A DNA stretch of 64,000 nt, taken from NCBI RefSeq assembly GCF_036346105.1, contig NZ_CP107811.1, positions 6,715,501-6,779,500 on the forward strand, in the 5' to 3' direction. Below are positions 29,735 to 63,257 of this stretch, piece after piece (the stretch's first letter is position 1; each line of letters starts with the position of its first letter). The notes beneath the pieces are model-generated. The model worked only from the letters and a program-made list of their open reading frames with translations, was not told the origin of the DNA and did not search any database. This stretch comes from Streptomyces sp. NBC_00539 (GTDB lineage Bacteria; Actinomycetota; Actinomycetes; Streptomycetales; Streptomycetaceae). A program made the position numbers and the translations under genes.

Positions 29735-30076
29735 CGGCGCCTGGACACGGCGCGGGTTCTGGTCGGCAACGGCGTGATCACATGCAGCAACGCCGATCAC
29801 CGGAGCCGGCAGCCGGTGGTGCGGCCTGCGTTCCCCCGCGACCAGGTGGGCAGGTACGCCCCGTGATGAGCGACGGCGCCGTGCAGGATCTTCGGGTACG
29901 CCGCATGTCGGGCCGCCTGCTCTGGGGGATCATTGTGGCCGCTCGGCCTGTACATGCCCTCGGTGCGGGGAGAGTTGATCGGTTCTCTTGCCCGCCTCGC
30001 GCAATAAGAAACGCATAAAATTCGAACGCATGGGTGGAGCGTGGCCGGGCAGTAGGCGGTTCGGAGGTTGATAACT
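29735..30076. other. Intergenic region, nothing recognised
   Basis: About 340 bp with promoter and leader of the small hydrophobic protein gene. The last 80 bp are AT-richer than average. No gene or RNA recognised. Confidence 0.45.
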
Positions 30077-30238
30077 ATGGTTCCCCTGCTTCTTGTTCTT
30101 CTGCTCGCTCTGATCCTTTTCGGTGCCGGTTTCGCGGTGAAGATCCTCTGGTGGGTCGCCATCGCAGTTCTGGTGCTGTGGCTGATCGGGTTCGTCGCCC
30201 GCCCGAAGGGCGGCAGCGGTCGCTGGTACCGCTGGTAG
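30077..30238 (+). CDS. Small hydrophobic membrane protein (lmo0937-like)
   Basis: 53 residues: MVPLLLVLLLALILFGAGFA, then a second helix WWVAIAVLVLWLIGFV and the basic tail GGSGRWYRW. This is the typical length and ending of the small 'hydrophobic protein' family of Streptomyces, often stress-related but uncharacterised. ATG 30077 has GGAGG 10 nt upstream, and a strong terminator follows, so it is an independent short transcript. Confidence 0.8.
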   Translation: MVPLLLVLLLALILFGAGFAVKILWWVAIAVLVLWLIGFVARPKGGSGRWYRW

Positions 30239-30275
30239 TCGCACACGACAATAGCCAGGAGCTGACACCGCAAGC

Positions 30276-30311
30276 CGGTGGCCTGCGCCCTTCCCAGGGT
30301 GCAGGCCACCG
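30276..30311 (+). terminator. Strong terminator after the small hydrophobic protein gene
   Basis: 16-bp stem (30276-30291 with 30296-30311) containing one G-U pair and a 4-nt loop, 38 bp after the stop. Confidence 0.8.
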
Positions 30312-30568
30312 TCATGTCCAGGGCCGGGGCGGAAACCGCTATCGGGTGAAATGGGACGTCGGGGGTATCCGTGAGGTAGCCGGGGCGGTCGCCGTGACAC
30401 AGCAGGGAACCTGCTCACCTCCAACGATCGACGGCCGTCCCGGCCCCGGTCATGAGGCGGCGGCTTGATGTGAGGCACGGACGGTGCTCTGCGTCGAACC
30501 CTTGTCAGCGCCCCGACTGGACTGCCCCGGCAGCATGCCGTGGCCGCCGCTCGGCGCGGCGGAGACTG

Positions 30569-30862
30569 CATGATGACGAGAGTGTACGGATGCCGCGTCG
30601 CCACATCGGATACGTCGAGCCGGAGGCCGGAGAAGTGCACACCCTGCCTGCGGAAGCCACGTTCGAGAAACCGGTCGAGGAGGCCCCGCTGATCGAGCGT
30701 CTCCATCGTGCGGATGTGCAGCCCTCCGGCCCGCGACTCCACCGTTCGAGGCTTCGGGAGACGCTCGAGCACATCGATCCCGGCAAGCCCCGGCTCGCAC
30801 GCGCGCATCAGTCCGGTCGGCCCCGCGCCGACGATCACTACCAGCGTGTCGGTCAAGGTCAA
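30569..30862 (-). pseudogene. N-terminal remnant of a PheA/TfdB-type FAD monooxygenase
   Basis: From ATG 30862 about 98 codons match the FAD-binding N-terminus of aromatic hydroxylases: VVIVGAGPTGLMRACEPGLA, RTVESRAGGLHIRTMETLDQ, RGLLDRFLERGF, RHPYTLVIMQ. Compared with the family, two residues are missing near DVLERLP, and after TLVIMQ the similarity ends abruptly, so the substrate-binding part (300 or more residues) is lost. Nonfunctional relic next to the ECF41 operon. Confidence 0.65.
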
Positions 30863-30990: not shown

Positions 30991-31881
30991 CTACCGGCTG
31001 ATCCGACGGGGGACCGCCACCGCGAGGAGTTTGTCCGGATTGCGCATGGCGTAGAAATGGGTGATCTTCCCGTCGTCGGTCTCGATCAGGAAGACGCCTT
31101 CCAGGCGTTCGCCGCTGAGGACGAGGGCGGGCGTGTTGTTGCAGTTCACCCTCTCGATCCGCAAGTCCGCCAGCCGCTCCAGGCGGAACAGGCTCATGAG
31201 GACCGCGGCCACCCTCTCCGCTCCGACCACCGGCCGGCGTGCCGCGGTGGCTTTGCCGCCGCTGTCGGCGGTCCAGGTGACGTCCGGTGCGAGCAGCGAG
31301 AGCAGTCCGTCCAGGTCGCCGGTGGTCGCCGCGGTCAGGAACTGCTCGGTGATCCGCGCGGTCGTGACGGCATCGAGGGGCTCGAAGCGCTTGCGCCGCG
31401 CCCGTACGTGCTCACGGGCACGGTGCGCCACCTGACGCACCGTCGACACGGACTTGCCCACCGCCATGGCGACGTCTCGGAACTCGAAGCCGAACACCTC
31501 GCGCAGCACGAACACCGCACGCTCATCGGGGGTGAGTGTTTCGAGCAGCACGAGCATCGCCATCGAAACCGACTCGGCGAGCAGCACGTCGGCTGAGGCG
31601 TCGTTCTCGTCCAGGAGCAGCGGCTCGGGCAGCCACGGGCCGATGTAGTCCTCGCGGCGGCGCGCGCTCGTCCGCAAAGCGTTGAGTGCCTGTCGGGTCA
31701 CCAGTTGGGCCAGATACGACTTGGTGTCCCGTACCGTCGCGAGGTCCACTTCGGCCCACCGGAGATAGCTGTTCTGCAGCACGTCGTCGGAGTCGGTCGC
31801 CGAGCCGAGGATCTCGTAGACGATCGTGAACAACAGCGGCCGCAGCAGGGTGAACCGCTCGGCGTGCTCGTCGGTGCTCAC
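30991..31881 (-). CDS. ECF41 family RNA polymerase sigma factor (SigJ-type)
   Basis: 296 residues from GTG 31881. Sigma2 at residues 10-75, the ECF41 signature WLPEP at 83-87, and sigma4 at about 108-160 (LTPDERAVFVLREVFGFEFR, SVSTVRQVAHRAREHVR). A C-terminal SnoaL-like domain (LTAATTGDLDGLLSLLAPDV) ends with the second ECF41 signature NPDKL (281-285). In this group the C-terminal domain replaces an anti-sigma factor and modulates activity. Overlaps the upstream flavoprotein gene by 4 bp (GTGA), the usual ECF41 partner arrangement. Confidence 0.94.
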   Translation of the reverse strand: MSTDEHAERFTLLRPLLFTIVYEILGSATDSDDVLQNSYLRWAEVDLATVRDTKSYLAQLVTRQALNALRTSARRREDYIGPWLPEPLLLDENDASADVLLAESVSMAMLVLLETLTPDERAVFVLREVFGFEFRDVAMAVGKSVSTVRQVAHRAREHVRARRKRFEPLDAVTTARITEQFLTAATTGDLDGLLSLLAPDVTWTADSGGKATAARRPVVGAERVAAVLMSLFRLERLADLRIERVNCNNTPALVLSGERLEGVFLIETDDGKITHFYAMRNPDKLLAVAVPRRISR

Positions 31882-33068
31882 GGAGAGGTGGCCTTCCGCG
31901 CGGCGGAGTCCGCTCCCGAGGGACGCGGGCCGCCCTTCGGCCAGCCCATGGAACCCGGCTTGACCGCCTCGCGGCGGATCCGCTTCGCGACCACGAACCT
32001 GCAGGTCACCTCCTTGATCGCCGCTCCCGCGCGGCCGCCGATGTAGAGGTTCACCGCGGTGTCGTCCTTGCGGGCGAGCTGTCGGATGCCGGCACGCCGA
32101 CCGAGGCTGACGCACGCCCCGGTGAAGGCCAGATCGATCACGGCTGGTTCGGTTCCCGCGATACGGCTCAGCACGGTGTCGGCAGCATGCGCCCCGAGCG
32201 GCCCGGCGGCGTAGCCGCTCATCCGCAATGGCTGTCCCGAGGGTGCGGCGGCGTCGCCGGCCGCGACGATGCGGTCGTCGTCGACGCTGGTCAGCGTCTC
32301 GTCGGTGAGCAACCGGCCGATCGGGTCGGTGCGCAGCCCGCTCTCCGCCGCCAGTTCCGGCACCCCGAAACCTGCCGTCCAGATCGCCAGCGCGCTCGGA
32401 CGCACCCCACCGTCGGCAAGGACGACCGCGTCCTGTCGGACCTCGCTCACCGAGGCGGCCTCGAGTACGGCGACACCGTGCCGGGACAGCCACGTGGCGA
32501 TGTACCGGCGGCCGGGCGCGCTGAACGTCGGCGCCAGGGTGCGCCCGCACACCAGCGTGATCCTGCGCCCTTGCTCGGCCAGCTCGGCGGCCGTCTCGAT
32601 GCCGGTCAATCCGCCGCCCACCACGGTGACCGGAGCATCGAGGGGCAACTCCTCCAGCCTGGTACGCAGCCGCTGTGCGGACTTCAGCTCAGCGACGTCG
32701 TAGGCGAATTCGGTCGTGCCGGGCACCGATGCAGGTGTCGCTCCGGTGCTGCCGACCGCGTAGATCACATAGTCGTAGTCCAGTGTGCGTCCCGATGCCA
32801 GCCGTATCGTGCGGGCGGCGGCGTCGATGCGCGTGGCACTGTCGACGACCAGCTCGATGCCCTCGCCGAGCAGCGTGCCGTAGTCGATCGTGGCCTCGCC
32901 GGTACGGGCCACGAACTGATGCAGCCGGATGCGTTCGACGAACTCCGGGCGCGGATTGACCAAAGTGATGTCGACGTCGGGGCGTGCCCGCAGGCGGTTG
33001 GCCGCGAGCGTCCCGGCGTACCCACCGCCGATGACCACGACCTTGTTGGGGCTGCTGTGTTTGCTCAT
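31878..33068 (-). CDS. FAD-dependent pyridine nucleotide-disulfide-type oxidoreductase (NDH-2-like)
   Basis: 396 residues from ATG 33068. FAD-binding VVVIGGGYAGTLAANRLRAR at the N-terminus, NAD(P)-binding VTVVGGGLTGIETAAELAEQ near residue 155, and the second FAD motif DDDRIVAAGDAAAPSG near 285. No active-site CxxxxC, so it groups with type II NADH dehydrogenase-like enzymes. Co-transcribed with the ECF41 sigma factor, which in known cases drives its own operon. Confidence 0.9.
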   Translation of the reverse strand: MSKHSSPNKVVVIGGGYAGTLAANRLRARPDVDITLVNPRPEFVERIRLHQFVARTGEATIDYGTLLGEGIELVVDSATRIDAAARTIRLASGRTLDYDYVIYAVGSTGATPASVPGTTEFAYDVAELKSAQRLRTRLEELPLDAPVTVVGGGLTGIETAAELAEQGRRITLVCGRTLAPTFSAPGRRYIATWLSRHGVAVLEAASVSEVRQDAVVLADGGVRPSALAIWTAGFGVPELAAESGLRTDPIGRLLTDETLTSVDDDRIVAAGDAAAPSGQPLRMSGYAAGPLGAHAADTVLSRIAGTEPAVIDLAFTGACVSLGRRAGIRQLARKDDTAVNLYIGGRAGAAIKEVTCRFVVAKRIRREAVKPGSMGWPKGGPRPSGADSAARKATSP

Positions 33069-33076
33069 GCCCTCAA

Positions 33077-33104
33077 GACACCGTGTGCCGACGGAAACGT
33101 GACA
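33077..33104 (-). promoter_or_regulatory. ECF41-like promoter before the flavoprotein/sigma operon
   Basis: On the minus strand TGTCACG (33104-33098), 17 nt, then TGTC (33080-33077). This is close to the reported ECF41 consensus (TGTCACA and CGTC). The -10 lies 8 nt from the ATG, implying a leaderless transcript. Confidence 0.4.
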
Positions 33105-33111
33105 CCACGCG

Positions 33112-33129
33112 AAGTGACGTGCGTCACTT
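33112..33129. promoter_or_regulatory. 18-bp palindrome upstream of the flavoprotein gene
   Basis: AAGTGACG-TG-CGTCACTT, perfect 8-bp arms, 44 bp before the ATG and just upstream of the ECF41-like -35. Candidate operator. Confidence 0.5.
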
Positions 33130-33208
33130 ACGGGCTGAGCCGCGATTGATTTTGTCCGCAGGTCGCGGCAGCAGTTGCCGGCTCGTCGAGCAGCAGCCTG
33201 GCTGGCGC

Positions 33209-33322
33209 AGAGTCGATGTATACGAGCACGGACAGCACCCTGTGCCCTTCTACGAGAAACTGACGGGAAGCACCGCATCCCGTTTCGCCTTCGCCGGGGT
33301 CACCCTGGCAAGCGTCGGCCCC
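33209..33322 (+). pseudogene. VOC (glyoxalase-like) protein fragment cut by an IS element
   Basis: 38 codons read RVDVYEHGQHPVPFYEKLTG then STASRFAFAGVTLASVGP, the first beta-alpha-beta-beta unit of VOC/bleomycin-resistance-type proteins (VPFYEKLTG and FAFAGVTLASVG are typical). The frame stops exactly where IS transposase sequence starts at 33322, so the gene lost everything downstream. Confidence 0.55.
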
Positions 33323-34013: not shown

Positions 34014-34631
34014 TTAGCCGGGTTCGGGTCCGTCATGGATGGTCAATGCTCCGGCGAGGTCGAGGTCGGCGACAGTGCCGTTTGCTCCGGCGCGGACGAG
34101 CAGCACTGCGCCGAGCGCGGTGCTCCAGAACGTCCTGGCCTCCACGCTGAGCGGTCGACGGGTCCTCCAGCCGCGACTGTCGATGAGCTGGCTCACGAAG
34201 CGCTCGGATTGCCGGAACAGCAGCTGGAGGTGCTGGTCGACCACGGGAGCGAGTTCGGGCTTGGAGATCCCGGCGGCGAGTGCGCGCGCGACCGAGGGGA
34301 GCGAGGGCATGGCCAGGACGGCGCGGGCAACGTTGCGCCGGAATGCCGCCGCGTCGGGGGCCTGGCGCCCGATGCGCTCGATGCGTCGGGCGTCGTGCAG
34401 CAAGCCGAGAAAAGCGGCGTGCACGAGCAGCGCGTCCTTGGAGCCGAAGTAGTAGGTGACCTGATTCGGGAAGGCGTCTGCCGCTTTCGCGATCGCCGCG
34501 ACGCTCAACTCGGCACCGGGCCGCTCCTTGCAGAGCTGTGCAGTGGCCTCGATCAGCCGGCGCCTGGTCGCGCGACCGCGGTCACGCGACCGACCCGGCG
34601 TTGATCGGGCTTCGGTTCGCTTCGTCTCCAC
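34014..34631 (-). CDS. TetR family regulator of the ketosynthase/oxylipin-like cluster
   Basis: 205 residues from GTG 34631. HTH at about 18-65 (RRRLIEATAQLCKERPGAEL, SVAAIAKAADAFPNQVTYYF, GSKDALLVHAAF); the rest is a helical ligand domain with LAAGISKPELAPVVDQHLQL. Its stop codon touches the IS end, so the last residues may have been altered by the insertion. Divergent from the FabF-like gene; two near-identical TTGTAT-N3-ATACAA palindromes in the 66-bp gap are very likely its operators. Ligand probably an acyl compound (inference). Confidence 0.9.
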   Translation of the reverse strand: METKRTEARSTPGRSRDRGRATRRRLIEATAQLCKERPGAELSVAAIAKAADAFPNQVTYYFGSKDALLVHAAFLGLLHDARRIERIGRQAPDAAAFRRNVARAVLAMPSLPSVARALAAGISKPELAPVVDQHLQLLFRQSERFVSQLIDSRGWRTRRPLSVEARTFWSTALGAVLLVRAGANGTVADLDLAGALTIHDGPEPG

Positions 34632-34638
34632 GCCCAAA

Positions 34639-34653
34639 TTGTATGTGATACAA
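34639..34653. promoter_or_regulatory. TetR operator 1
   Basis: TTGTAT-GTG-ATACAA, perfect 6-bp arms; 8 bp upstream of the TetR GTG. Shares both arms with operator 2, and the centres are 30 bp (about three helical turns) apart. Confidence 0.8.
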
Positions 34654-34668
34654 CAGGGTTTCGCTCGC

Positions 34669-34683
34669 TTGTATCGCATACAA
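34669..34683. promoter_or_regulatory. TetR operator 2
   Basis: TTGTAT-CGC-ATACAA, perfect 6-bp arms; 14 bp before the ketosynthase ATG and overlapping the region just upstream of its ribosome binding site, so binding would block transcription. Confidence 0.8.
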
Positions 34684-34697
34684 GAAAGGTCCATGGA

Positions 34698-35978
34698 ATG
34701 CACGGGACTGAAGTCGTAGTGACCGGACTCGGCGCCATCACGCCACTCGGTGGGGACGTGGTGTCCACCTGGGACGCCCTGCTCGCCGGCGAGTCCGGCA
34801 TCCGCGGCGGCGTCCTGCCCGGCCACGAGGGCGCCGGCCTTCCCGGCGCCGTGGCGGGGACGATGGCGATCGACCCCGCTGCATCGCTGCCGCCGGTGCA
34901 GGCCAGGCGGCTCGACCGCTCGCAGCAGGCAGCCCTCACCGCGGCGGCGGAAGCATGGGCCGACGCCGGCGCCCCGGACGTGGACCCCGACCGGCTCGCA
35001 TCGGCCATCGGCACGGGCATCGGGGGCATACGGACGCTGTTGAAGGAAGACGACGCACTGGAGGCGGCCGGGACCCGGCGCGTCTCGCCACGCACGGTCC
35101 CGATGCTCATGCCCAATGCCGCGGCGGCGCTGATCAGTATCGAGTACGGCGCACGGGCGGGGGTCTACACGCCCGTCTCGGCGTGCTCCTCCGGTGCCGA
35201 GGCGATCGCCCTGGGGGCCAGGCTCATCCGCGCCGGCGAGGCGGACGTGGTCATCGCGGGCGGGACCGAGGCCGCGATCACCCCCATCACCGTCGCCGGC
35301 TTCGCCCAGGCCCAAGCACTCTCGCGGCACACCGCTGAACCCGCCTCGGCGTCACGGCCGTTCGCCGCGGACCGCAGCGGATTCGTCCTCAGTGAAGGCG
35401 CGGCTGTCGTGGTGCTCGAAAGCGCCGAGCATGCCAACGCACGGGGCGCCCACGTCCACGCGGTGCTCGCGGGCGCCGGCATCGCCGCCGATGCCCACCA
35501 CATCACGGCGCCCGCTCCCGACGGCTCCGGTCAGATCTCGGCCATGCGGAAAGCCCTCGCACAAGCCGGCTTGGCGCCCGAGCAGATCAGCCACATCAAC
35601 GCCCACGCCACCGGCACACCAGTCGGCGACGTCGCCGAGGCACACGCGATCGGAGAGGTCTTCGGCCGCGCTACCGTCACGGCCCCCAAGGCGGCGCTCG
35701 GCCATCTCTTCGGCGCCGCCGGCGCGATCGAGGCGCTCATCGCCGTCCTCAGTGTGAAGCACGGCGTCATCCCGCCCACCCGCAACCTCACCGCGGCCGG
35801 CGTCGGTCCCGACATCGACCTGGATGTCGTCGCCGAGCGACGAGACGTCCCCCAGGAGGCCGTGCTCAGCAACTCCTTCGGCTTCGGCGGGCAGAACGTC
35901 TCGCTCATCGTCACCGGCGCACGGCACCACACGTCCCTTGCGGCAGGCGAGTCGCATGCGCAGCATCGTCGTACGTGA
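34698..35978 (+). CDS. 3-oxoacyl-ACP synthase II (FabF-like ketosynthase)
   Basis: 426 residues from ATG 34698 (AAGAAAGG upstream). Full KAS fold with Cys163 (SACSSG), His303 (NAHATGTPVGD), Lys331 and His336 (KAALGHLFGAAGA), i.e. the complete C-H-H(-K) active site at the same spacing as FabF. Condenses acyl chains with malonyl-ACP. No acyl carrier protein, reductase or other fab/PKS genes adjoin, so it is a stand-alone enzyme under a dedicated TetR, perhaps adjusting fatty-acid chain length or composition for the downstream oxidation genes (inference). Confidence 0.93.
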   Translation: MHGTEVVVTGLGAITPLGGDVVSTWDALLAGESGIRGGVLPGHEGAGLPGAVAGTMAIDPAASLPPVQARRLDRSQQAALTAAAEAWADAGAPDVDPDRLASAIGTGIGGIRTLLKEDDALEAAGTRRVSPRTVPMLMPNAAAALISIEYGARAGVYTPVSACSSGAEAIALGARLIRAGEADVVIAGGTEAAITPITVAGFAQAQALSRHTAEPASASRPFAADRSGFVLSEGAAVVVLESAEHANARGAHVHAVLAGAGIAADAHHITAPAPDGSGQISAMRKALAQAGLAPEQISHINAHATGTPVGDVAEAHAIGEVFGRATVTAPKAALGHLFGAAGAIEALIAVLSVKHGVIPPTRNLTAAGVGPDIDLDVVAERRDVPQEAVLSNSFGFGGQNVSLIVTGARHHTSLAAGESHAQHRRT

Positions 35979-36162
35979 CACCACCGCAGCGCGGTCGGCG
36001 TGAGCCGCCGCCCGGGGCATGACGCATGGCGAGGCTGCTCCGATCGGGACGATCAGAGCCCCGATCGGCGGCTTCCGTGACCTTGCGGCGCCCCCCGCCC
36101 CGCCGAAATGCCGGGAGGTGCGGGCTGAAATACGCTGGTGATGTGGCCCACGGAGGTGTGCG

Positions 36163-37911
36163 ATGAGCCATGACACGGGGGCGGACGTCGATCAGCTGAT
36201 GGCCCTTTCCCGCCCCGCTCTCGACGACCTGTTCCGCATGAGCCGCGCCGGCGGGATACCCGTCGGTGAGACGCGCGGCACGGTGCTCGTGGCGCGCGGG
36301 GCGATGGTGGCGAAGGTGGCGGCGCGGTGGGCACGGCTCCTCGCGTGGAAGGGCAAGGTCTTCGACGCCGAACGGGGTGAACTGCGCAACAGGGTCACGC
36401 CGCTCGGAGTGCGCGCGATACGGGCCAAGGTCTACCGGGGCGCGAGCCGGCTCGACAACGGGGAGTGCACCGTACTGGACTACTCCCGGACGTCGCTCCT
36501 CGCGCACTGGATCCGCGACGAGATCCGGGAGGTCAAGCCCGGCGTCTATCTCGGCATCGTCTACTGGGGGCGGCGCAAGGTCCTCAACTTCGCCCTGTCC
36601 TACCCCGGTTCGCCGGCACCGGCTTCGGCCCGCCGCGCGTCGCAGCAGATCGCCGTCACCATCGGGGCCACGCTGCCTCCGGAGCGGGTGGCCGAGGTGC
36701 AAGAGGTGTTGGCCGAGGCACATCGCAGGGGGACCGGGGGCGAGTTCCTCCCCTTCGCCGAGCTGGCGGGCGTCCACTTCGCTCGTGTGGTCCTCGTTCC
36801 CGAGGAAAAGGACCACGCCGGGCAGACGATGCCGGCGAGCATCGTCTACATGAGCGAGGTCGACGCTCCGATGGACGCGCACCTCGCCGACCTCGTCGGC
36901 AAGGCCGGCAGCGGACTGGAAAAGGTGTTCGGGCACTGCGAGGGCTATCCGCCGCCCCGAGAGCCGGATGCCACGCGGGTCGCCTGGCTACGGGCCCATG
37001 CCGTGCCCAGCTCGGCCTTCTACGTCAACACCGTCGGCCGGGGCCTGCACCGGATCCGGCAGGAGGACCGGCTGCGCGAGGCGATCCAGGAGTTCCTCGA
37101 CCAGCGCGGCGCCGAGCCGGCCGGCGCGGATCCGGCACAGGTACGGGCCGCCATCCAGCGGTACGTCACCGGTCGCCCGGACCTGGCGTGGGCACGGGCG
37201 GGTCCCGCGCCGCCCACGCTGCGGTGGAGGATGCGGGAGGCGGCGCACCTCGTGGGGGTTCCGCTGGCCGCGATCGCCCTGCTGCCCGTCATCCTGATCG
37301 GCCTGCCGGTCTGGGTCGTGGTGCTGCGCCGGCACGAAAGGCGTGACGTCCCCAGCCGGGAGCGGCCCTCCCCCGACCACGTGGCCAGGCTGGCGGCCTG
37401 CGAGGACTTCGCCACGCAGAACCCGTTCACGGCAGTGGGCCTCGTCAAGTACGGCCGGTTCCGGCGGGCCACGCTGACCGGGGTGCTGTTCGCCGTCGAC
37501 TACGGCGTGCGCCACTTCTTCAACCGGGGCAGCCTCGCCGGGGTCAAGACCATCCACTTCGCCCGCTGGCTGTTCATCGATGACAGACGGCGAGTGATCT
37601 TCGCGAGCAACTACGACGGCAGCCTGGAAAGCTACATGGACGACTTCATCGACAAGGTCGCCTGGGGCCTCAACGCCGTCTTCAGCAACGGCCACGGCTA
37701 TCCGCGCACCAGGTGGCTCGTGCGGGACGGTGCCGAGGACGAACTCGCCTTCAAGCACTATCTGCGCTGCCACCAGTTGCCGACGCAGGTGTGGTACTCC
37801 GCGTACGACGCGCTGACCACGCGCAACCTCGACACCAACGCCCGCATCCGCGCCGGTCTCTTCGGAGAACTCGGCCCGGCCGAGACCCGGGCCTGGCTCG
37901 CCTTGTTCTAG
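36163..37911 (+). CDS. 582-residue protein with duplicated HFAR domain, peroxidase-cluster associated
   Basis: ATG 36163 after GGAGGTG. Residues 15-150 form one module (LFRMSRAGGIPVGETRGTVL, WKGKVFDAERGELRNRV, LLAHWIRDEIREVKPGVYLG). Residues 203-303 and 463-565 are two copies of one domain: each has HFAR (205 and 465), then a strand pair, acidic xxDxxxxxxDxxxDxV helix, and a GHCEGYP or NGHGYP motif, then an aromatic FYV/WYS plus R-x-R ending. Residues 360-390 contain a transmembrane helix, so the second copy may be membrane-proximal. Function unknown; similar proteins sit beside DyP peroxidases, as here. 18 bp before the DyP gene. Confidence 0.7.
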   Translation: MSHDTGADVDQLMALSRPALDDLFRMSRAGGIPVGETRGTVLVARGAMVAKVAARWARLLAWKGKVFDAERGELRNRVTPLGVRAIRAKVYRGASRLDNGECTVLDYSRTSLLAHWIRDEIREVKPGVYLGIVYWGRRKVLNFALSYPGSPAPASARRASQQIAVTIGATLPPERVAEVQEVLAEAHRRGTGGEFLPFAELAGVHFARVVLVPEEKDHAGQTMPASIVYMSEVDAPMDAHLADLVGKAGSGLEKVFGHCEGYPPPREPDATRVAWLRAHAVPSSAFYVNTVGRGLHRIRQEDRLREAIQEFLDQRGAEPAGADPAQVRAAIQRYVTGRPDLAWARAGPAPPTLRWRMREAAHLVGVPLAAIALLPVILIGLPVWVVVLRRHERRDVPSRERPSPDHVARLAACEDFATQNPFTAVGLVKYGRFRRATLTGVLFAVDYGVRHFFNRGSLAGVKTIHFARWLFIDDRRRVIFASNYDGSLESYMDDFIDKVAWGLNAVFSNGHGYPRTRWLVRDGAEDELAFKHYLRCHQLPTQVWYSAYDALTTRNLDTNARIRAGLFGELGPAETRAWLALF

Positions 37912-37928
37912 AGAAGGGTGTGACGGTG

Positions 37929-39329
37929 ATGACAGCAGCTGCGCGCCTGGAACTGGACGACATCCAGGGCCTCGTCGCACGCGGCTACAGCGCACTGGAG
38001 TCGGCCTGCTTCCTGCTGCTCACGGTGGACGACCCGGTTGTCGCACGCTCCGCGCTGGGACGACTCGCCCTGCTGGCGACGAGCGGCAGCGCGGAGCCAC
38101 CGGAGTCGGCCCTGAACCTGGCCTTCACCTCGGAGGGCATGCGCCGCCTCGGACTGGACCCCAGCGAACTCGACGGATTCTCACATGAGTTCGTCTCGGG
38201 CATGACCGACCCCAACCGCTCCCGTCTCCTGGGAGACGTGGGGGAGAACGCGCCGAGCCACTGGCGCTGGGGTGGCCCCGACTCCCCGCCCGTGGACGTC
38301 CTCGCACTGTTGTACGCCCGGGACGAAGGGCGCCTGGACCGGCTGGAGTCGCAGGTTCGCCACGACGTCCTCGCCGGGGGCGGGCTCACCGAGGCCGTCC
38401 GCCTGGGCACGTCCCGGCTGACCGATCGCGAGCCCTTCGGCTTCCGTGACGGCATTTCCCAGCCGCTGGTCGAGGGGCTGTCGAAGGCCACCGCCGACGA
38501 CGACGCGGTCAAGGCAGGGGAGTTCGTCCTCGGCTACGCCAACGAATACGGACTGCTCACCGACCGGCCGCTGCTGCCCGCCGCGTGCGACACCTTCGGC
38601 TTGCTGCCCCGCGCGCCCGACGGCGGCGGCGCCGCCGACTTCGGACGCAATGGAAGCTATCTGGTGTTCCGGCAGCTCAGGCAGGACGTCGCGGGCTTCC
38701 ACCGGTACCTCGAAGAGGCGACGCGTCACCCCGACGGCGCCGACGATCCCGAGGCCCGCGAGGTGCTCGCGGCACGCATGGTCGGCCGCTGGCGCAGCGG
38801 CGCGCCACTGGTGCACGCGCCGCTGCGGGACGCCCCGAGCCTCGGCTCGGACAACGACTTCGGTTACTTCGCCACCGATCCGGAGGGCCTGAGCTGCCCC
38901 CTCGGCGCCCACGTCCGCCGGGCCAACCCGCGCGATTCGCTGGATCCCCGACCCGGATCGGCCCAGTCGGTCGCCATCGGCCGACGCCACCGGATCCTGC
39001 GCCGCGGCCGTGCGTACGGCGACGGGGACGGGGACAGAGGCCTGCACTTCCTGTGCCTGGGGGCGAACATCTCCCGCCAGTTCGAGTTCATCCAGCACAC
39101 CTGGCTGAACAACGCCCACTTCAATGGGCTGTACGACGGCCCGGACCCGCTCGTCGCGGCCCGTCAGAACCACGATGCGACGTTCACCGTCCAGGCGAGG
39201 CCGGTCCGCACCCGCTACCGCGACCTGCCGCAGTTCGTCTCGGTCCAGGGCGGCGCCTACTTCTTCCTGCCCGGCCTCCAGGCGCTGCGCTACCTGTGCG
39301 AGGGCGCGCGACCGGGCGGACACCGGTGA
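37929..39329 (+). CDS. DyP-type heme peroxidase
   Basis: 466 residues from ATG 37929; GTG 37926 and 37920 are alternatives after GAGAAGG. Signature GFRDGISQP with catalytic Asp174, proximal heme His328 in CPLGAHVRRANPRDS, and the C-terminal FIQHTWLNNAHFNGL region. No Tat signal, so cytoplasmic or membrane-associated through partners. Uses H2O2 or organic hydroperoxides. Its stop overlaps the GTG of the catalase-like gene by 4 bp, so the two are made in a fixed ratio; likely processes hydroperoxides formed by the downstream dioxygenase (inference). Confidence 0.93.
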   Translation: MTAAARLELDDIQGLVARGYSALESACFLLLTVDDPVVARSALGRLALLATSGSAEPPESALNLAFTSEGMRRLGLDPSELDGFSHEFVSGMTDPNRSRLLGDVGENAPSHWRWGGPDSPPVDVLALLYARDEGRLDRLESQVRHDVLAGGGLTEAVRLGTSRLTDREPFGFRDGISQPLVEGLSKATADDDAVKAGEFVLGYANEYGLLTDRPLLPAACDTFGLLPRAPDGGGAADFGRNGSYLVFRQLRQDVAGFHRYLEEATRHPDGADDPEAREVLAARMVGRWRSGAPLVHAPLRDAPSLGSDNDFGYFATDPEGLSCPLGAHVRRANPRDSLDPRPGSAQSVAIGRRHRILRRGRAYGDGDGDRGLHFLCLGANISRQFEFIQHTWLNNAHFNGLYDGPDPLVAARQNHDATFTVQARPVRTRYRDLPQFVSVQGGAYFFLPGLQALRYLCEGARPGGHR

Positions 39330-40492
39330 ACGCGCGACAGCGGCTCAACGACGCGGTCCTGGCCTGTGTTCGGCTTGAGCGGCGCATCGACCCCTACATC
39401 CGCCCCACGGCCGACCGCCTCCTCCGCGGGCCGGTCCAGACCCTGGTGCAGTGGTGCGTCAACGTCCGCCGCCACGACGAGCACCTGCGCATCGCCGAGG
39501 AGAGGTCACTGCCCGACGAAGCGGCCACCACCGAGGCCATTGCCCACCAGATGGCCCGGTTCATCATGCGCGAGTACACCCCCGGTACCGCCCAGCGAGC
39601 CGGAAACACCAAGACCTACGGCGTCGTCCACGGAGAGTTCACGGTGCCGGACGGGCTCCCCGAGCGGCTGCGCCACGGAGTGTTCAGCCACCCGGCGACG
39701 TACCGGGCCTGGGTCCGCTTCGCCGGTCCGGGCCCCCTCGCACCACCCGACATCCAGGACAACGGAGTGCTCAGCATCGCCGTCAAACTGCTGGGCGTCG
39801 ACGGCGCGACACTGCTCGACGACGAGCGGGGCACCCAGGACTTCACGGGCATCACCACGCCCACGTTCACCACGCCGGACATCACCGAGAACCTCAAGCT
39901 GCAACAGCACGTCTACGCGGGCACCCCCGTCCTGTACTTCATCGGCCCCCGCCACCCGCACCTGTGCGACATGGTCATGCAGGGCCTGTACGCCAAAACC
40001 CACTCCAGCCCCCTGGAGGCGCGCTACTGGAGCTGCGTTCCGTACCTGCTCGGCGAAGGCCAGGCCATGCAGTACGCCATCGCCCCGCGCGACGGCGTGC
40101 GAAGCCGCGCCCCGTGGCACCCGGTCGACGACTACCTGCGCCAGGCCCTGGCCGCCACCCTGCGCGAGCGCGATGTCGTCCTCGACTTCCTCGTCCAACT
40201 GCAGACGGACCCCCACCGGATGCCGATCGAGAACGCCTCTGTGGTGTGGCCCGAGCGCCTGTCGCCCTTCGTGCCCGTTGCCACACTGCGGCTGCCGCGA
40301 CAGGAGTTCGCCGGCGCGGAGCAGTTCGCGCTCGCCGATCGGCTGACCTTCAACCCTTGGCACGCCCTGCCCGAGCACCGCCCCCTCGGTAACCAGAACC
40401 GCGCCCGCCGTGCCGTCTACCTGCGCCTCTCACACCTCAGGCAAGCGATGAACGGTACCCCGCACACGGATCCCGGCACGACAGCCGCATGA
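39326..40492 (+). CDS. Catalase-related heme protein (allene-oxide-synthase-like)
   Basis: 388 residues, shorter than true catalases (about 480 or more). Distal heme His102 in TKTYGVVHGEFTVPD and proximal Tyr365 in the R-x3-Y motif (RRAVYLRL) are present. The sequence NPWHALPEHRPLGNQNRARR is characteristic of catalase-like hydroperoxide-processing enzymes rather than catalase. Animal relatives fused to lipoxygenase convert fatty-acid hydroperoxides to allene oxides. Translationally coupled to the DyP gene and two genes before an alpha-dioxygenase-like protein, which supports such a role. Confidence 0.82.
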   Translation: MNARQRLNDAVLACVRLERRIDPYIRPTADRLLRGPVQTLVQWCVNVRRHDEHLRIAEERSLPDEAATTEAIAHQMARFIMREYTPGTAQRAGNTKTYGVVHGEFTVPDGLPERLRHGVFSHPATYRAWVRFAGPGPLAPPDIQDNGVLSIAVKLLGVDGATLLDDERGTQDFTGITTPTFTTPDITENLKLQQHVYAGTPVLYFIGPRHPHLCDMVMQGLYAKTHSSPLEARYWSCVPYLLGEGQAMQYAIAPRDGVRSRAPWHPVDDYLRQALAATLRERDVVLDFLVQLQTDPHRMPIENASVVWPERLSPFVPVATLRLPRQEFAGAEQFALADRLTFNPWHALPEHRPLGNQNRARRAVYLRLSHLRQAMNGTPHTDPGTTAA

Positions 40493-40582
40493 CGCGCGGA
40501 CAGGCGCAATGTCTACTATCGTCGTATATGGGCCGGTAGTTCCCGCAGCGCCTCTTTCCCGCACTGTCCCTTCGGAAGGGTA

Positions 40583-40969
40583 ATGGCCATGGACGCGCGC
40601 TCCTTCGCGCGATACAGCCTCGCCGGAATCCGGCTGGTGAACGGTGTGGCGGCGCTACTGGCCCCACAGGTGGTGGCCCGTCGGCTGGGGGCGGATGAAA
40701 CGCAGCCGGCCCTCGGCCACGTCCTGCGCATGTTCGGTGTGCGAACGGTGTTCATCGGAGCCGAACTGCTGTTCCTCCAGGACCCGGGCCGGATCGCCCG
40801 GGCCTTGCGCGTCGGCACGGTCATCCACACCAGCGACGCGCTGTCGGCCGCCGCGGCCGGCCGGCGCGGCACGCTTCGGCCCCGGGCGGCGGCAGCCGCC
40901 ACGGCGATCTCCTCGCTGAACGTCGCCCTCACGCTGGTGGCCCAGTGGCCGCGGCGGGGTCCGAACTGA
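40583..40969 (+). CDS. Small membrane protein in the peroxidase cluster
   Basis: 128 residues from ATG 40583 (GGAAGGG upstream). Two to three hydrophobic segments: LAGIRLVNGVAALLAPQVV, HVLRMFGVRTVFIGAELLFL, and AAAAATAISSLNVALTLVAQ. No known family. 90 bp after the catalase-like gene and 38 bp before the dioxygenase gene, hence in the same operon; may help place the enzymes at the membrane (inference). Confidence 0.65.
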   Translation: MAMDARSFARYSLAGIRLVNGVAALLAPQVVARRLGADETQPALGHVLRMFGVRTVFIGAELLFLQDPGRIARALRVGTVIHTSDALSAAAAGRRGTLRPRAAAAATAISSLNVALTLVAQWPRRGPN

Positions 40970-41007
40970 CCCCTTCGACCGAGTTGGCTGCCGAAAGGAA
41001 CCCCACG

Positions 41008-42870
41008 ATGCGAAAAGGCCCTTTCCACGCCCGGTCCCGTGCGAACCCGACGGTCCACGCCGACGGCAATGGCGCCTGCTCGCCGTTCGTGCGCCTGCAC
41101 GACCAGCTGGCGCTGGCCGTCGACCGCAAGGTCGGCTGGCAGTGCCTGCCCAAGCCGCTCGGCCTGCTGACCCTCATGGGCCTGCGCGACAATCTGCGCC
41201 GCAACAACCTCCACGACACCAGCGGCTACCCCGCGCAGGGGGTGCCCGACATCGAGCCGCCGGCCGCACGGCACCTCACCGAGCGCACCGCCGACGGCTC
41301 CTACAACGACCTCGACAACCCGCGCATGGGCATGGCGCACTCCCGTTTCGGGCGCAACGTCCCGCCGGACGTGACCTTTCCCGAGCCGGAGCCGCAGATC
41401 CTCACTCCCAGCCCGCGCGAGGTCAGCCGTACGCTCCTCACCCGGGACGAGTTCATCCCTGCCACGTCCGTCAACGCACTGGTCGCCGCATGGCTGCAGT
41501 TCATGATCCGCGACTGGGTCAGCCACGGACAGGGTGCCATCGACGACCCCTGGCGGATCGAACTCGAGGGCGACGACCTCTGGCCGACGCCACCGATGCT
41601 CGTGCCCCGGACCCTCCCCGACGCCACCCGCAGCGAAGGCGGCGACGGCCTGCCGCCGACGCACATCAACGAGAACTCGCACTGGTGGGACGCCTCCCAG
41701 CTCTACGGGAGCGACCTCGCGACCCAACGGCGGCTGCGCTCGGGCGCGCACGGCAAACTCAAAGTTGCACGCGACGGCAGGCTGTTCCCCGATGCCCCGG
41801 AGCTGGATCCCGCGAACACTCCCGGCTTCTGGCTGGGCCTGCTGATGATGCAGTACGTGTTCATCCTGGAGCACAACACCATCTGCGACCGGCTGCGCCG
41901 GGAGTTCCCCGCCTGGTCGGACGAACAGCTCTTCCAGCGGGCGCGCCTGATCAACGCCGCGCTCATTGCCAAGATCCACACCGTGGAGTGGACCCCCGCC
42001 GTCATCAGCCACCCGACGACCGTGGCCGCGCTGCGCGCCAACTGGTACGGCCTGCTGGGCGAACGGGTGCAACGGCTGCTCGGCAGGATCAGCAGGAACG
42101 AGCTGCTCAGCGGCATCGTGGGCGGCAGCACCGATCACTTCGGCGTCCCGTACGCCCTCACCGAGGAGTTCGTGGCGGTCTACCGGATGCACCCCCTGGT
42201 GCCCGATGACTGGAGCTTCCGCTCGGCCCTGGACGACTCGCTGCTCCAGGAGACGGATTTCCGGGAACTGACCGGCAGGCGCGCGTACGAGGTGTTCGCC
42301 GGCCACGAGCTGCCGGACCTCTTCTACTCCTTCGGCACCTCGCACCCCGGCCTCGTGACCCTGCACAACTACCCCAAGTTCCTCCAGGAGTTCCAGCGCC
42401 CGGACGACAAGCTCATGGACCTGGCGGCCGTCGACGTGCTGCGCATACGCGAGATGGGCGTGCCCAGGTACAACGAGTTCCGGCGTCGGCTCCACCTGGA
42501 GCCCGCCGCCGACTTCGCGGCGCTGACGGACAACCCGGTCTGGGCCGAGGAGATGCGCCGGCTCTACGACAACGACATCGAACGCGTGGACCTGATGGTG
42601 GGCATGTACGCAGAGCCCCGCCCCAAGGGCTTCGCCTTCAGCGACACGGCCTTCCGGATATTCGTCCTCATGGCCTCACGCAGGCTCAACAGCGACCGAT
42701 TTCTGACCAGGGACTACACGCCACAGGTGTACACGCAGACCGGCCTGGACTGGATCGAGAACAACAGCATGACCAGCGTGATGCTGCGCCATTTCCCGGA
42801 ACTGCGCTCAGCCCTGCGGTCCGTGGACAACGCCTTCACCCCGTGGACGACGCTCCGGCCCCCCGCATGA
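41008..42870 (+). CDS. Heme peroxidase superfamily fatty acid alpha-dioxygenase-like enzyme
   Basis: 620 residues from ATG 41008 (GAAAGGAA upstream). Belongs to the animal/COX-type heme peroxidases. Matches plant alpha-dioxygenase in detail: distal His173 (DWVSHG), HINENSHWWDASQLYGS, EHNTICDRL (288-296), AALIAKIHTVEWTPAVI, ALRANWYGLLG, and LTEEFVAVYRMHPLVPD with catalytic Tyr392 three residues before proximal His395, as in COX (Tyr385/His388). Expected reaction: O2 insertion at the alpha carbon of fatty acids to give 2-hydroperoxy acids. No signal peptide. Last gene of the rightward operon. Confidence 0.9.
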   Translation: MRKGPFHARSRANPTVHADGNGACSPFVRLHDQLALAVDRKVGWQCLPKPLGLLTLMGLRDNLRRNNLHDTSGYPAQGVPDIEPPAARHLTERTADGSYNDLDNPRMGMAHSRFGRNVPPDVTFPEPEPQILTPSPREVSRTLLTRDEFIPATSVNALVAAWLQFMIRDWVSHGQGAIDDPWRIELEGDDLWPTPPMLVPRTLPDATRSEGGDGLPPTHINENSHWWDASQLYGSDLATQRRLRSGAHGKLKVARDGRLFPDAPELDPANTPGFWLGLLMMQYVFILEHNTICDRLRREFPAWSDEQLFQRARLINAALIAKIHTVEWTPAVISHPTTVAALRANWYGLLGERVQRLLGRISRNELLSGIVGGSTDHFGVPYALTEEFVAVYRMHPLVPDDWSFRSALDDSLLQETDFRELTGRRAYEVFAGHELPDLFYSFGTSHPGLVTLHNYPKFLQEFQRPDDKLMDLAAVDVLRIREMGVPRYNEFRRRLHLEPAADFAALTDNPVWAEEMRRLYDNDIERVDLMVGMYAEPRPKGFAFSDTAFRIFVLMASRRLNSDRFLTRDYTPQVYTQTGLDWIENNSMTSVMLRHFPELRSALRSVDNAFTPWTTLRPPA

Positions 42871-42964
42871 GGCTCCGCCCTTGGGCCTTCCCCAGCCCGG
42901 CAGCGGTGTTCTCGGCGCCCGGGACGACCGCCCCTTCGTCGTCACTCTGATCGTTGGTCTCGAT

Positions 42965-43525
42965 TCAATGCCGCAGGAGTTCGCAGAAGCGGTCCAGGGC
43001 GCGGTCGGTGCGGCGGCGGTCGGCTGTGGTCGTGAGATCGAACAGGAGACCACGGATGACGGCCATGACCAGCGTGGGAGTGACAGAGTCGTCAGGGCCG
43101 GTGGCGATGTCGCGGAACGTGGAGCCGAGGATGTCGAACCAGTCCGTGATCGCCTCGGCCCGGTCCGGGTAGTTCTCGGGGTGAGCCAGGCCGTCGGCGT
43201 GCACCTCGAAGAACAGCCGGACGAACGGGGCGCGCTCCGGTGCGCTGATCCAGGCCCAGATGCCGCGCAGTCGTTCCTCCGCAGAGGCCGCCTCCGGAGG
43301 GAGGTTCTCGGCCAAACGTGTCGCACCGCGGCGGCGGGCCTCGGCCAGGACGGCAGCTACCAACTCCTGTTTGCTGCCGAAGTCATAGAGCAGCATCCGC
43401 GGACTGGTATCGAGAGCCGCAGCCAACGGCCGCAGGCTCAAACCGGCCAGACCGTGCGCCAGCACGTAATCGGTCGCCCGCGCCAGCGTGGCCTCCCGCC
43501 GGGCGGGATCCGGGGGTCGTCCCAC
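42965..43525 (-). CDS. TetR family transcriptional regulator
   Basis: 186 residues from ATG 43525. HTH: REATLARATDYVLAHGLAGL, SLRPLAAALDTSPRMLLYDF, GSKQELVAAVLAEA. C-terminal helical domain with FVRLFFEVHADGLAHPENYP. Divergent from the patatin-like lipase (82 bp gap), which it probably controls. I see no perfect palindrome like that of the other TetR in the gap; the -10-like region TATATGGTAC is AT-rich. Confidence 0.9.
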   Translation of the reverse strand: MGRPPDPARREATLARATDYVLAHGLAGLSLRPLAAALDTSPRMLLYDFGSKQELVAAVLAEARRRGATRLAENLPPEAASAEERLRGIWAWISAPERAPFVRLFFEVHADGLAHPENYPDRAEAITDWFDILGSTFRDIATGPDDSVTPTLVMAVIRGLLFDLTTTADRRRTDRALDRFCELLRH

Positions 43526-43607
43526 GGTGAACCATCCTCTCCGTACTGCCGGTCTGAGCCTGCGTCAGTATATGGTACGACTGTTTCAATAACGGGAGGA
43601 GACAGTC

Positions 43608-44477
43608 ATGCACACGCTCGACCGGGCACTCGCACTGGGCGCCGGAGGGCCCGTCGGCGCGGCCTGGATGGCAGGACTGGCCTGCGGACTGCGCCGCGGC
43701 GGGGTGGATCTCAGCGAGGCAGATCTGATCGTCGGCACCTCGACCGGCGCGATCATCGGTGCAGTGCTGGCCACCGGTCAGGACCCCGGCCGGCTCGCCA
43801 CTCCTGTGCGCCCCGCCGACTCCGACGGCACCCCGCCCCAGGTGGACGGGCGCCGACTGGGCGAGGCGTTCGCCGTGCTTCGCAATGCCGCCGCGAACCC
43901 GTCCGAGGCGCGGCGCCGAGTGGGCCAGATCGCGCTCGCCGCCGAGACCGGCCCCGAGCAGGCACACATCGCCCGGATGCGCGCCCTGGCCGGCGCAGAC
44001 CAGTGGCCGGACCGGAAGCTGCTCATTACCGTGCTGGACGCTGAGACCGGCGAGCAGGAGGTCTTCGACCGTGCCAGTGGCGCCCCGCTGCCCTCCGCCG
44101 TGGCGGCAAGCACGGCCTTCCCGGGCATCTACCCGCCGATCACCGTCAACGGCCGCCGATACATGGACGGCTCCCTGCGATCGGCTACCAACGCCGGACT
44201 CGCAGCCGGAGCCCGCACGCTCGTCGTGATCGACCCACAAGCGCACCTCTTTCCCCGCGAGTTGCTCGACCAGGAGCTGGCGGTCGCCGGGGCGCACACA
44301 GCGGTCGCCATCGAGCCCGATCCGGCATCAATACGCGCGTTCGGCTCAGACCTGAACGACCGCAGGGCTTGGGAACCGGCGTACCAGGCGGGTCTGCGCC
44401 AAGCCGCCGATGCCGCGGAGAAGCTCCGCCTCGCATGGGAGACCCGATCCGACACGGACGGAGCGCCCCGACGGTGA
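43608..44477 (+). CDS. Patatin-like phospholipase
   Basis: 289 residues from ATG 43608 after GGGAGGAG. Patatin fold with oxyanion Gly-rich ALALGAGGPVGAAWMAG, nucleophile Ser45 in VGTSTGAII (G-x-S-x-G) and catalytic Asp187 in MDGSLRS (D-G-x). Cytoplasmic; cleaves acyl chains from phospholipids or other lipids. Under its own divergent TetR and next to the dioxygenase cluster, so it could supply the free fatty acids (inference). Confidence 0.9.
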   Translation: MHTLDRALALGAGGPVGAAWMAGLACGLRRGGVDLSEADLIVGTSTGAIIGAVLATGQDPGRLATPVRPADSDGTPPQVDGRRLGEAFAVLRNAAANPSEARRRVGQIALAAETGPEQAHIARMRALAGADQWPDRKLLITVLDAETGEQEVFDRASGAPLPSAVAASTAFPGIYPPITVNGRRYMDGSLRSATNAGLAAGARTLVVIDPQAHLFPRELLDQELAVAGAHTAVAIEPDPASIRAFGSDLNDRRAWEPAYQAGLRQAADAAEKLRLAWETRSDTDGAPRR

Positions 44478-63128: not shown

Positions 63129-63257
63129 GGCCCGGGGCCTTTCGAATGATGAGGGAACAGGCAGCGCGATTCCCGGAACTGCACACGGCACACGGCCCCG
63201 CCTCGCCCGGCCAGGCCGGCGTGAGCCGGCAGCGGGGTGCGGAGGGAGGGGCGGGAA

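Follow-up and report, generated by a model that had tools for sequence, protein, structure and literature searches.

Introduction

Alpha-dioxygenases oxidise carbon 2 of fatty acids to a hydroperoxide (PMC13049297), and PMC8720084 describes those outside plants as little known. Here we analyse a locus with a gene for such an enzyme (aDOX) in Streptomyces sp. NBC_00539, located on a stretch of 64,000 nucleotides (NZ_CP107811.1, positions 6,715,501 to 6,779,500; in the following called the window). Besides aDOX, the locus encodes a 582-aa protein, a DyP-type peroxidase (DyP), a catalase-like protein named CatL and a small membrane protein; this core is real and recurrent, composed of known enzyme classes in altered form plus two families without a name. 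No description of the gene set was found in the openly licensed literature, judged mainly by title and abstract.

Three described systems come close to it. The plant and cyanobacterial alpha-dioxygenases (4kvj, 4hhr; CalDOX and LepDOX of PMC8720084) belong to the same family and share the residues that are Tyr392, His395, His324 and Arg559 in the window enzyme, which has Arg168 where they have the distal His and whose gene is clustered with those for DyP, CatL and two families that lack a name. The catalase-related AOS-LOX and HPL-LOX fusions of corals, as presented in PMC5617202, likewise couple a catalase-fold enzyme with a proximal Tyr to a fatty-acid dioxygenase; the partner in the window, however, is aDOX and not a lipoxygenase (LOX), Asn stands for the distal His and Thr for the distal Asn, and no allene oxide would be expected. 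In the fungal DOX-CYP fusions (LDS, AOS, EAS), according to PMC13049297, a dioxygenase of the cyclooxygenase (COX) family is joined to a further heme enzyme, which converts the hydroperoxide, in some cases with an Asn near the iron, whereas the window has a catalase-fold protein and DyP instead of the P450.

Results and Discussion

The conserved core extends from 36163 to 42870 and comprises the following features.

36163-37911 (+), 582-aa protein, composed of an N domain and an MC part
36163..36650 (+), N domain (about 160 aa) of this protein, a family without a name
36658..37911 (+), MC part of this protein, an unnamed domain present twice
37929-39329 (+), DyP-type peroxidase, 466 aa (TIGR01413, 8re3)
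39326-40492 (+), CatL, catalase-like, 388 aa, GTG start (profile match to 3e4w and catalases)
40583-40969 (+), small membrane protein, weakly DUF4267-like
41008-42870 (+), aDOX, fatty-acid alpha-dioxygenase, 620 aa (An_peroxidase E 1e-104)

A first-pass annotation of this DNA had described tightly packed rightward genes, and its spacing is right throughout (gaps of 17 bp, a 4-bp overlap, 90 bp and 38 bp), as is its gene set of a ketosynthase (KS), the 582-aa protein, DyP, CatL, the membrane protein, aDOX, two TetR regulators and a patatin-like lipase, all of which are present at the locus. It had read them as a candidate oxylipin cluster with a pathway from lipase through dioxygenase to catalase-like protein and DyP; the outline and the linkage of the core are borne out by our analysis, while the borders were drawn too wide by including KS, both TetRs and the patatin, and its description of the heme ligands has to be corrected as shown below.

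In order to follow the core through other genomes, we scanned with 17 aDOX sequences and retained 80 loci, the best of 587 confirmed ones, a set skewed to relatives of the window aDOX in which 50 loci measure at least 20 kb and 30 less than 20 kb; their gene content was read by iterated hidden Markov models (HMMs). MC together with DyP was found in 17 of the 80 loci, CatL with a distal Asn in 14, CatL with a distal His in nine and the N domain in 18. MC, DyP and Asn-type CatL occur jointly in 14 loci, of which 12 also encode a DUF4267-like protein and ten possess all six parts. The 14 loci with MC, DyP and CatL span Actinomycetota and Chloroflexota, and the 17 loci with MC and DyP come from Streptomyces (L074-L078, L081, L127, L144), Kitasatospora (L079), Amycolatopsis (L089), Geodermatophilus (L114), Modestobacter (L117), an actinobacterial metagenome-assembled genome (MAG; L083), Chloroflexota MAGs (L082, a Ktedonobacteraceae, L124 and L133) and Granulicella (L109). 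CatL is missing from three of them (L074, L075, L109).

Within these 17 loci the genes stand in at least seven orders. The window shares MC-DyP-CatL-DUF-aDOX with L076-L079, L127 and L144; the others include N-CatL-MC-DyP-DUF-aDOX (L114, L117), DUF-aDOX followed by MC-DyP-CatL (L081), aDOX-MC-DyP-CatL (L089, L124), MC-DyP-DUF-aDOX-CatL (L082) and two orders with an inverted CatL (L083, L133). As the same content is kept in altered order, a shared function is favoured over plain descent. CatL also adjoins aDOX in loci from Mycobacterium, Nocardia, Streptomyces, Nonomuraea and Rhizobium, and in nine loci the two lie in one stop-to-stop frame, either as CatL-aDOX (L019, L020, L067, L068, L085) or as aDOX-CatL (L061, L130, L146, L147). 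For one of them, the CatL-aDOX frame of Rhizobium phaseoli (L020), the annotation gives a single protein of the peroxidase family; a RoxA-like cytochrome c follows directly after it (L020:9775-11433).

The association was also visible at the level of whole genomes. Among 396 sampled genomes of the window's phylum, with a limited number of candidates scored per genome, aDOX was found in 20, CatL at E < 1e-50 in seven (weaker in eight more) and MC at E < 1e-30 in nine (weaker in two more). aDOX is present in all seven genomes where CatL matched strongly (6/6 without the window, hypergeometric p 5e-9) and in six of the nine with a strong MC match (5/8 without the window, p 8e-6), where both p-values treat genomes as independent and ignore shared ancestry; four of the MC genomes belong to one genus. 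If weak matches are included, aDOX is present in 8/15 CatL genomes and 6/11 MC genomes. The full set occurs in this sample in the window's genome only and is thus, taken together with the loci above, widespread but uncommon. The first-pass annotation had named rare co-occurrence as evidence against its pathway, and on this point the result is favourable for the core, which is linked in many loci with CatL and MC mostly in aDOX genomes.

aDOX itself is far nearer to a plant alpha-dioxygenase (4kvj, E 7e-112) than to cyclooxygenase (E 3e-18), and together with the conserved catalytic Tyr and carboxylate residues this makes its assignment strong. It is the sole match to the An_peroxidase family in its 7.5-Mb genome and its closest relative among the matches listed is from Streptomyces lavendulae with 91-92% identity. 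The alignment shows that it keeps the catalytic Tyr392, at the position where 4kvl has Phe, and the proximal His395, both of which are present in 97/97 aDOX domains. His324 and Arg559 occupy the positions of rice His311 and rice Arg559 (counted manually, 4kvj numbering shifted by 3) and are invariant in 17/17 sequences. We take 4kvj to be the rice and 4hhr to be the Arabidopsis enzyme, and the residues line up in both. PMC8720084 gives the two codes reversed, and a reference title therein ascribes carboxylate binding to the two rice residues.

The distal side is different. In the plant chains the helix that carries the distal His has the sequence QFMVHDW or QFMIHDW; the window enzyme has QFMIRDW, with Arg168 in place of the His (rice His157). 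Across the 97 domains the distal residue is R in 47, H in 46, K in three and N in one (R/K/N in 51/97), and the tree, built by a quick method and with long branches for L021, L138, L145 and L064, requires two changes between His and non-His. Where MC, DyP and Asn-type CatL are all present, the aDOX distal residue is non-His in 12/14 rows and His in 2/14. The idea that Arg168 is tied to the full cluster was rejected, as L124 and L133 have His and many Streptomyces enzymes with Arg have neither MC nor CatL in the locus. Since Kim et al. (PMC8720084) already describe the distal His as only partially conserved in the family, its absence is not in itself a discovery; new are the clade and the gene context.

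CatL as a single sequence gave no match in Pfam, NCBIfam or PDB. A profile of 24 relatives (of 33 CatL stretches, with L144 and eight further ones left out) reached 3e4w with E 2.4e-9, catalase 4b7f with E 4.8e-7 and the coral allene oxide synthase (AOS) 1u5u with E 0.017; Pfam Catalase is reached by 7/24 family members, the window CatL not among them. The best PDB relative, 3e4w, at an E of only 2.4e-9, has a distal His unlike the window protein; we take it to be the catalase-related protein of M. avium subsp. paratuberculosis, listed in the PDB as a putative uncharacterized protein. The kinship to catalases is thus visible only through the profile of relatives, and the distal catalase residues are replaced. 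The proximal ligand motif is kept (R361-x3-Y365), and its Tyr is present in 39 of 40 CatL rows, the remaining row having a gap. On the distal side the His of the catalase motif R-x-x-H-A-K faces Asn94 in RAGNTK of the window, and the catalase GNNTP, with the distal Asn (148 in human, 137 in coral), faces ITTP, so that the distal Asn is replaced by Thr. Over the 40 rows the position of the distal His is occupied by His in 24, Asn in 15 and Phe in one. In a tree of these rows (quick method, long branches for L187 and L189, eight weak CatL matches of the 396-genome search left out) the Asn-type rows form one clade (SH-aLRT 100) that arose by one change, and 15/15 come from the aDOX-MC-DyP cluster type. 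A catalase pocket without this His should not work as a catalase.

DyP is the conventional member of the three. It exceeds the cut-off of NCBIfam TIGR01413 (109.2 versus 100.5 bits) and matches 8re3 with E 7.5e-63, and its active site, with Asp174 (in GFRDG), Arg248 and His328 invariant in 19/19 sequences, is as complete as in these reference enzymes, from which it is set apart by its pairing with a two-copy domain that has no Pfam name. We take Asp174 to be the Asp of the GxxDG motif, Arg248 the distal Arg and His328 the proximal His. The statement of the first-pass annotation that all three enzymes have intact heme ligands is hence correct for the proximal ligands (His395 of aDOX, Tyr365 of CatL, His328 of DyP) and for the distal Asp174 and Arg248 of DyP; it fails for the distal His of aDOX and CatL, which are Arg168 and Asn94, and therefore two of the three heme enzymes have lost the distal His. 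The small membrane protein stays below the Pfam cut-off for DUF4267 (19.6 versus 27.8 bits), and DUF4267-like proteins are recurrent neighbours of aDOX with 33 of the 80 loci.

The 582-aa protein consists of two unnamed families joined to each other, an aDOX-associated N domain and a DyP-associated, duplicated MC domain. Both domains are in one frame in five of the 14 loci that have both (L074, L075, L081, L089, L127) and in separate frames in nine (L076, L077, L079, L083, L114, L117, L124, L133, L144). The duplication noticed in the first pass is real, with the two MC copies matching each other at E 6e-9 (one-to-one blastp); they flank a hydrophobic stretch starting at residue 363 (by eye), HFAR occurs at 205 and 465, and in Granulicella (L109) the two copies lie in separate frames. 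For the N domain there was no match in Pfam or NCBIfam, the best being DUF6025 with E 0.2 in one of 17 family members, and the best PDB hit had E 0.95. Likewise nothing usable was obtained for MC in Pfam, NCBIfam or PDB (best PDB E 0.016 for a fragment; Pectate_lyase22 E 0.0088 in one member), and profile comparison rejected MC both as a degenerate part of DyP and as a relative of CatL (probabilities of 0.2 and 0.3 of 100). The N domain also occurs near aDOX without MC or CatL, namely in Thermomonosporaceae (L080, L084) and in cyanobacteria at distances of 1.6 and 5 kb (L132, L145), where L080 is a contig of 5.5 kb and neither MC nor CatL is matched in the genome of L084.

Searches with the MC domain returned 14 matches in 11 of the 396 genomes and ten matches in six of 22 chosen genomes. 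All 24 loci fetched in this way, some of which overlap, have a DyP match, and so do all 17 MC-carrying loci among the 80. Of the plasmid records, 26 matched the 582-aa protein and 25 matched aDOX, and three and five of them, respectively, were examined; the alphaproteobacterial plasmids L014, L015 and L016 encode single annotated chains of about 1420-1620 aa with two MC-type domains and DyP. As MC is accompanied by DyP in the fetched loci and fused to it in these plasmid chains, we regard MC as the partner of DyP. The chains of L015 and L016 also have a Pfam P450 domain, making them multi-heme proteins without placement.

From these sequence data we propose that the core is a bacterial alpha-oxidation module at the membrane in which aDOX makes a 2-hydroperoxy acid that is processed by CatL and DyP, a reading to which we assign a probability of about 0.55. 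By means of its Tyr392 radical, aDOX would add O2 to a free fatty acid, giving a hydroperoxide at carbon 2. CatL, with its Tyr ligand and an Asn for the distal His, would show no catalase action and may instead rearrange, dehydrate or cleave the hydroperoxide to give a 2-oxo acid or the aldehyde shorter by one carbon, and we propose it as a candidate hydroperoxide lyase, dehydratase or isomerase. DyP, which alone among the three has its peroxidase site complete, could reduce the hydroperoxide or spend it on the oxidation of a second substrate, and the MC protein might hold DyP at the membrane. The allene oxides considered in the first pass are unlikely products because CatL does not have the His that, according to PMC5617202, starts hydrogen abstraction in coral AOS, and because there need not be a double bond next to a 2-hydroperoxide. 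An Asn near the heme iron has been described in P450s acting on fatty-acid hydroperoxides, where it may aid O-O cleavage and can also be dispensable (PMC13049297). A more far-reaching version is tentative and in our opinion rather doubtful: a three-heme oxylipin assembly at the membrane in which an aDOX without distal His would depend on its own DyP, anchored at the membrane, to supply or remove peroxide, CatL would have become a new 2-hydroperoxy-acid isomerase or lyase through a single His-to-Asn change, and N and MC would act as scaffold, being a separately evolved counterpart of the coral AOS-LOX and fungal DOX-CYP systems. With a cluster that recurs and includes a catalase-fold partner of its own, the role of a bacterial alpha-dioxygenase can be tested directly; CatL is a candidate for new heme hydroperoxide chemistry through a distal Asn in a catalase pocket, and the two unnamed protein families are given a first context, one of them with DyP in every locus fetched.

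Several observations speak against the proposed alpha-oxidation module. The pair of MC and DyP is lacking in 63/80 and CatL in 57/80 aDOX loci (30/80 being shorter than 20 kb), and two full clusters, L124 and L133, have a distal His in aDOX. The 582-aa protein is matched in part by 12/396 genomes and as a whole only by the window's own, and three of the eight non-window MC genomes give no aDOX match. In 20 chosen genomes with an aDOX locus without MC and CatL, CatL lies elsewhere in four and MC elsewhere in four. Finally, L074 (S. lavendulae) and L075, close relatives that keep the rest, give no CatL match genome-wide, and CatL is therefore not essential to the remaining core. In L074 (9440-9590) the sequence ceases to align with that of the window where DyP ends and does so again only within the last 31 bases of catL, which we read as a deletion scar left by the loss of catL between DyP and the small membrane gene.

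The same genes could also serve peroxide protection, with aDOX disposing of free fatty acids in excess and the other two enzymes, CatL and DyP, merely scavenging the peroxides that result. This would agree with the full peroxidase site of DyP and with MC-DyP-CatL groups with a His-type CatL away from aDOX (L072, L184, L185, L186 and L189, with CatL before MC and DyP in L189); the genomes of L072 and L184-L186 all have aDOX elsewhere, three of them having been picked for having it. We consider it unlikely, however, as the CatL of this cluster type no longer has the His that catalase chemistry would be expected to need, the shared CatL-aDOX frames suggest one pathway, and scavengers packed together with a peroxide-making enzyme would be an odd detoxification. 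A change in aDOX itself, in which the Arg for the distal His directs the window clade to another position or substrate or turns it into a peroxidase, would fit the 51/97 domains with R, K or N and the partial conservation stated in PMC8720084, but with Tyr and proximal His kept in 97/97, the counterparts of His311 and Arg559 invariant in 17/17 and a distal His in L124 and L133 despite the same gene content, we give it a low probability. For a local secondary-metabolite cluster, in which the heme enzymes would tailor an unusual acyl chain made by KS, one can cite KS directly upstream on the same strand as well as TetR1 with two palindromes; as neither KS nor TetR1 is kept together with the core and no acyl carrier gene is among the nine genes recognised in 34014-44477, this is improbable. 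A mere chance neighbourhood would explain the loose linkage of patatin, KS and the TetRs but hardly MC, DyP and Asn-type CatL in 14/80 aDOX loci from two phyla and with several gene orders, and its probability is negligible.

The core is flanked by the following features.

34014 to about 34690 (-), TetR1 (TetR_C_12, Pfam), divergent from the ketosynthase
34639..34683, pair of perfect palindromes, TTGTATNNNATACAA, lying between the genes of TetR1 and KS, likely operators
34698-35978 (+), KS, stand-alone ketosynthase, FabF-like (Pfam, NCBIfam), a neighbour and no conserved part
42968-43525 (-), TetR2 (TetR_N 26.2 bits, cut-off 24), divergent from the patatin
43608-44477 (+), patatin-like lipase (Pfam Patatin E 3.3e-20)

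Two perfect palindromes were found between TetR1 and KS against 0.00 expected from 100 shuffles. KS and TetR1, which the first-pass annotation had placed in the cluster, were rejected as core since they are not conserved with it: the KS family occurs in 2/80 loci and never in the same place (far off in L103, inverted in L077), and TetR1 has no strong match in the 80. TetR2 was rejected as well, with one relative seen in L079 only, by neighbour grouping (TetR2 stood outside the HMM step). The lipase, proposed as the first enzyme of the pathway, is weakly linked, with strong family matches in 2/80 loci (L079, L108) and a weak match in L081, and may be a supplier of fatty acids. For the neighbour groups, frames were picked by length and codon composition and Pfam was run on one representative per group. 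Another patatin-type group lies near aDOX in three loci (L096, whose tested representative is a patatin, L104 and L105), and a patatin is found near aDOX on one Calothrix plasmid. A group of GMC oxidoreductases is located near aDOX in 11 loci, eight of them from Streptomyces (L085, L088, L091, L097, L098, L099, L103, L107, L108, L116, L123), mostly without MC, DyP or CatL (one representative tested by Pfam).

Further away in the window, the frame at 29930-30862 (-) starts like an FAD monooxygenase before the likeness in its translation seems to fade and is perhaps a decayed gene, 30991-33278 (-) encodes an FAD/NAD oxidoreductase (Pyr_redox_2) adjoining a frame that by eye reads like an ECF sigma factor, and 61020-63257 (-) reads, also by eye, like an EF-G type translation factor (HVDAGKTT).

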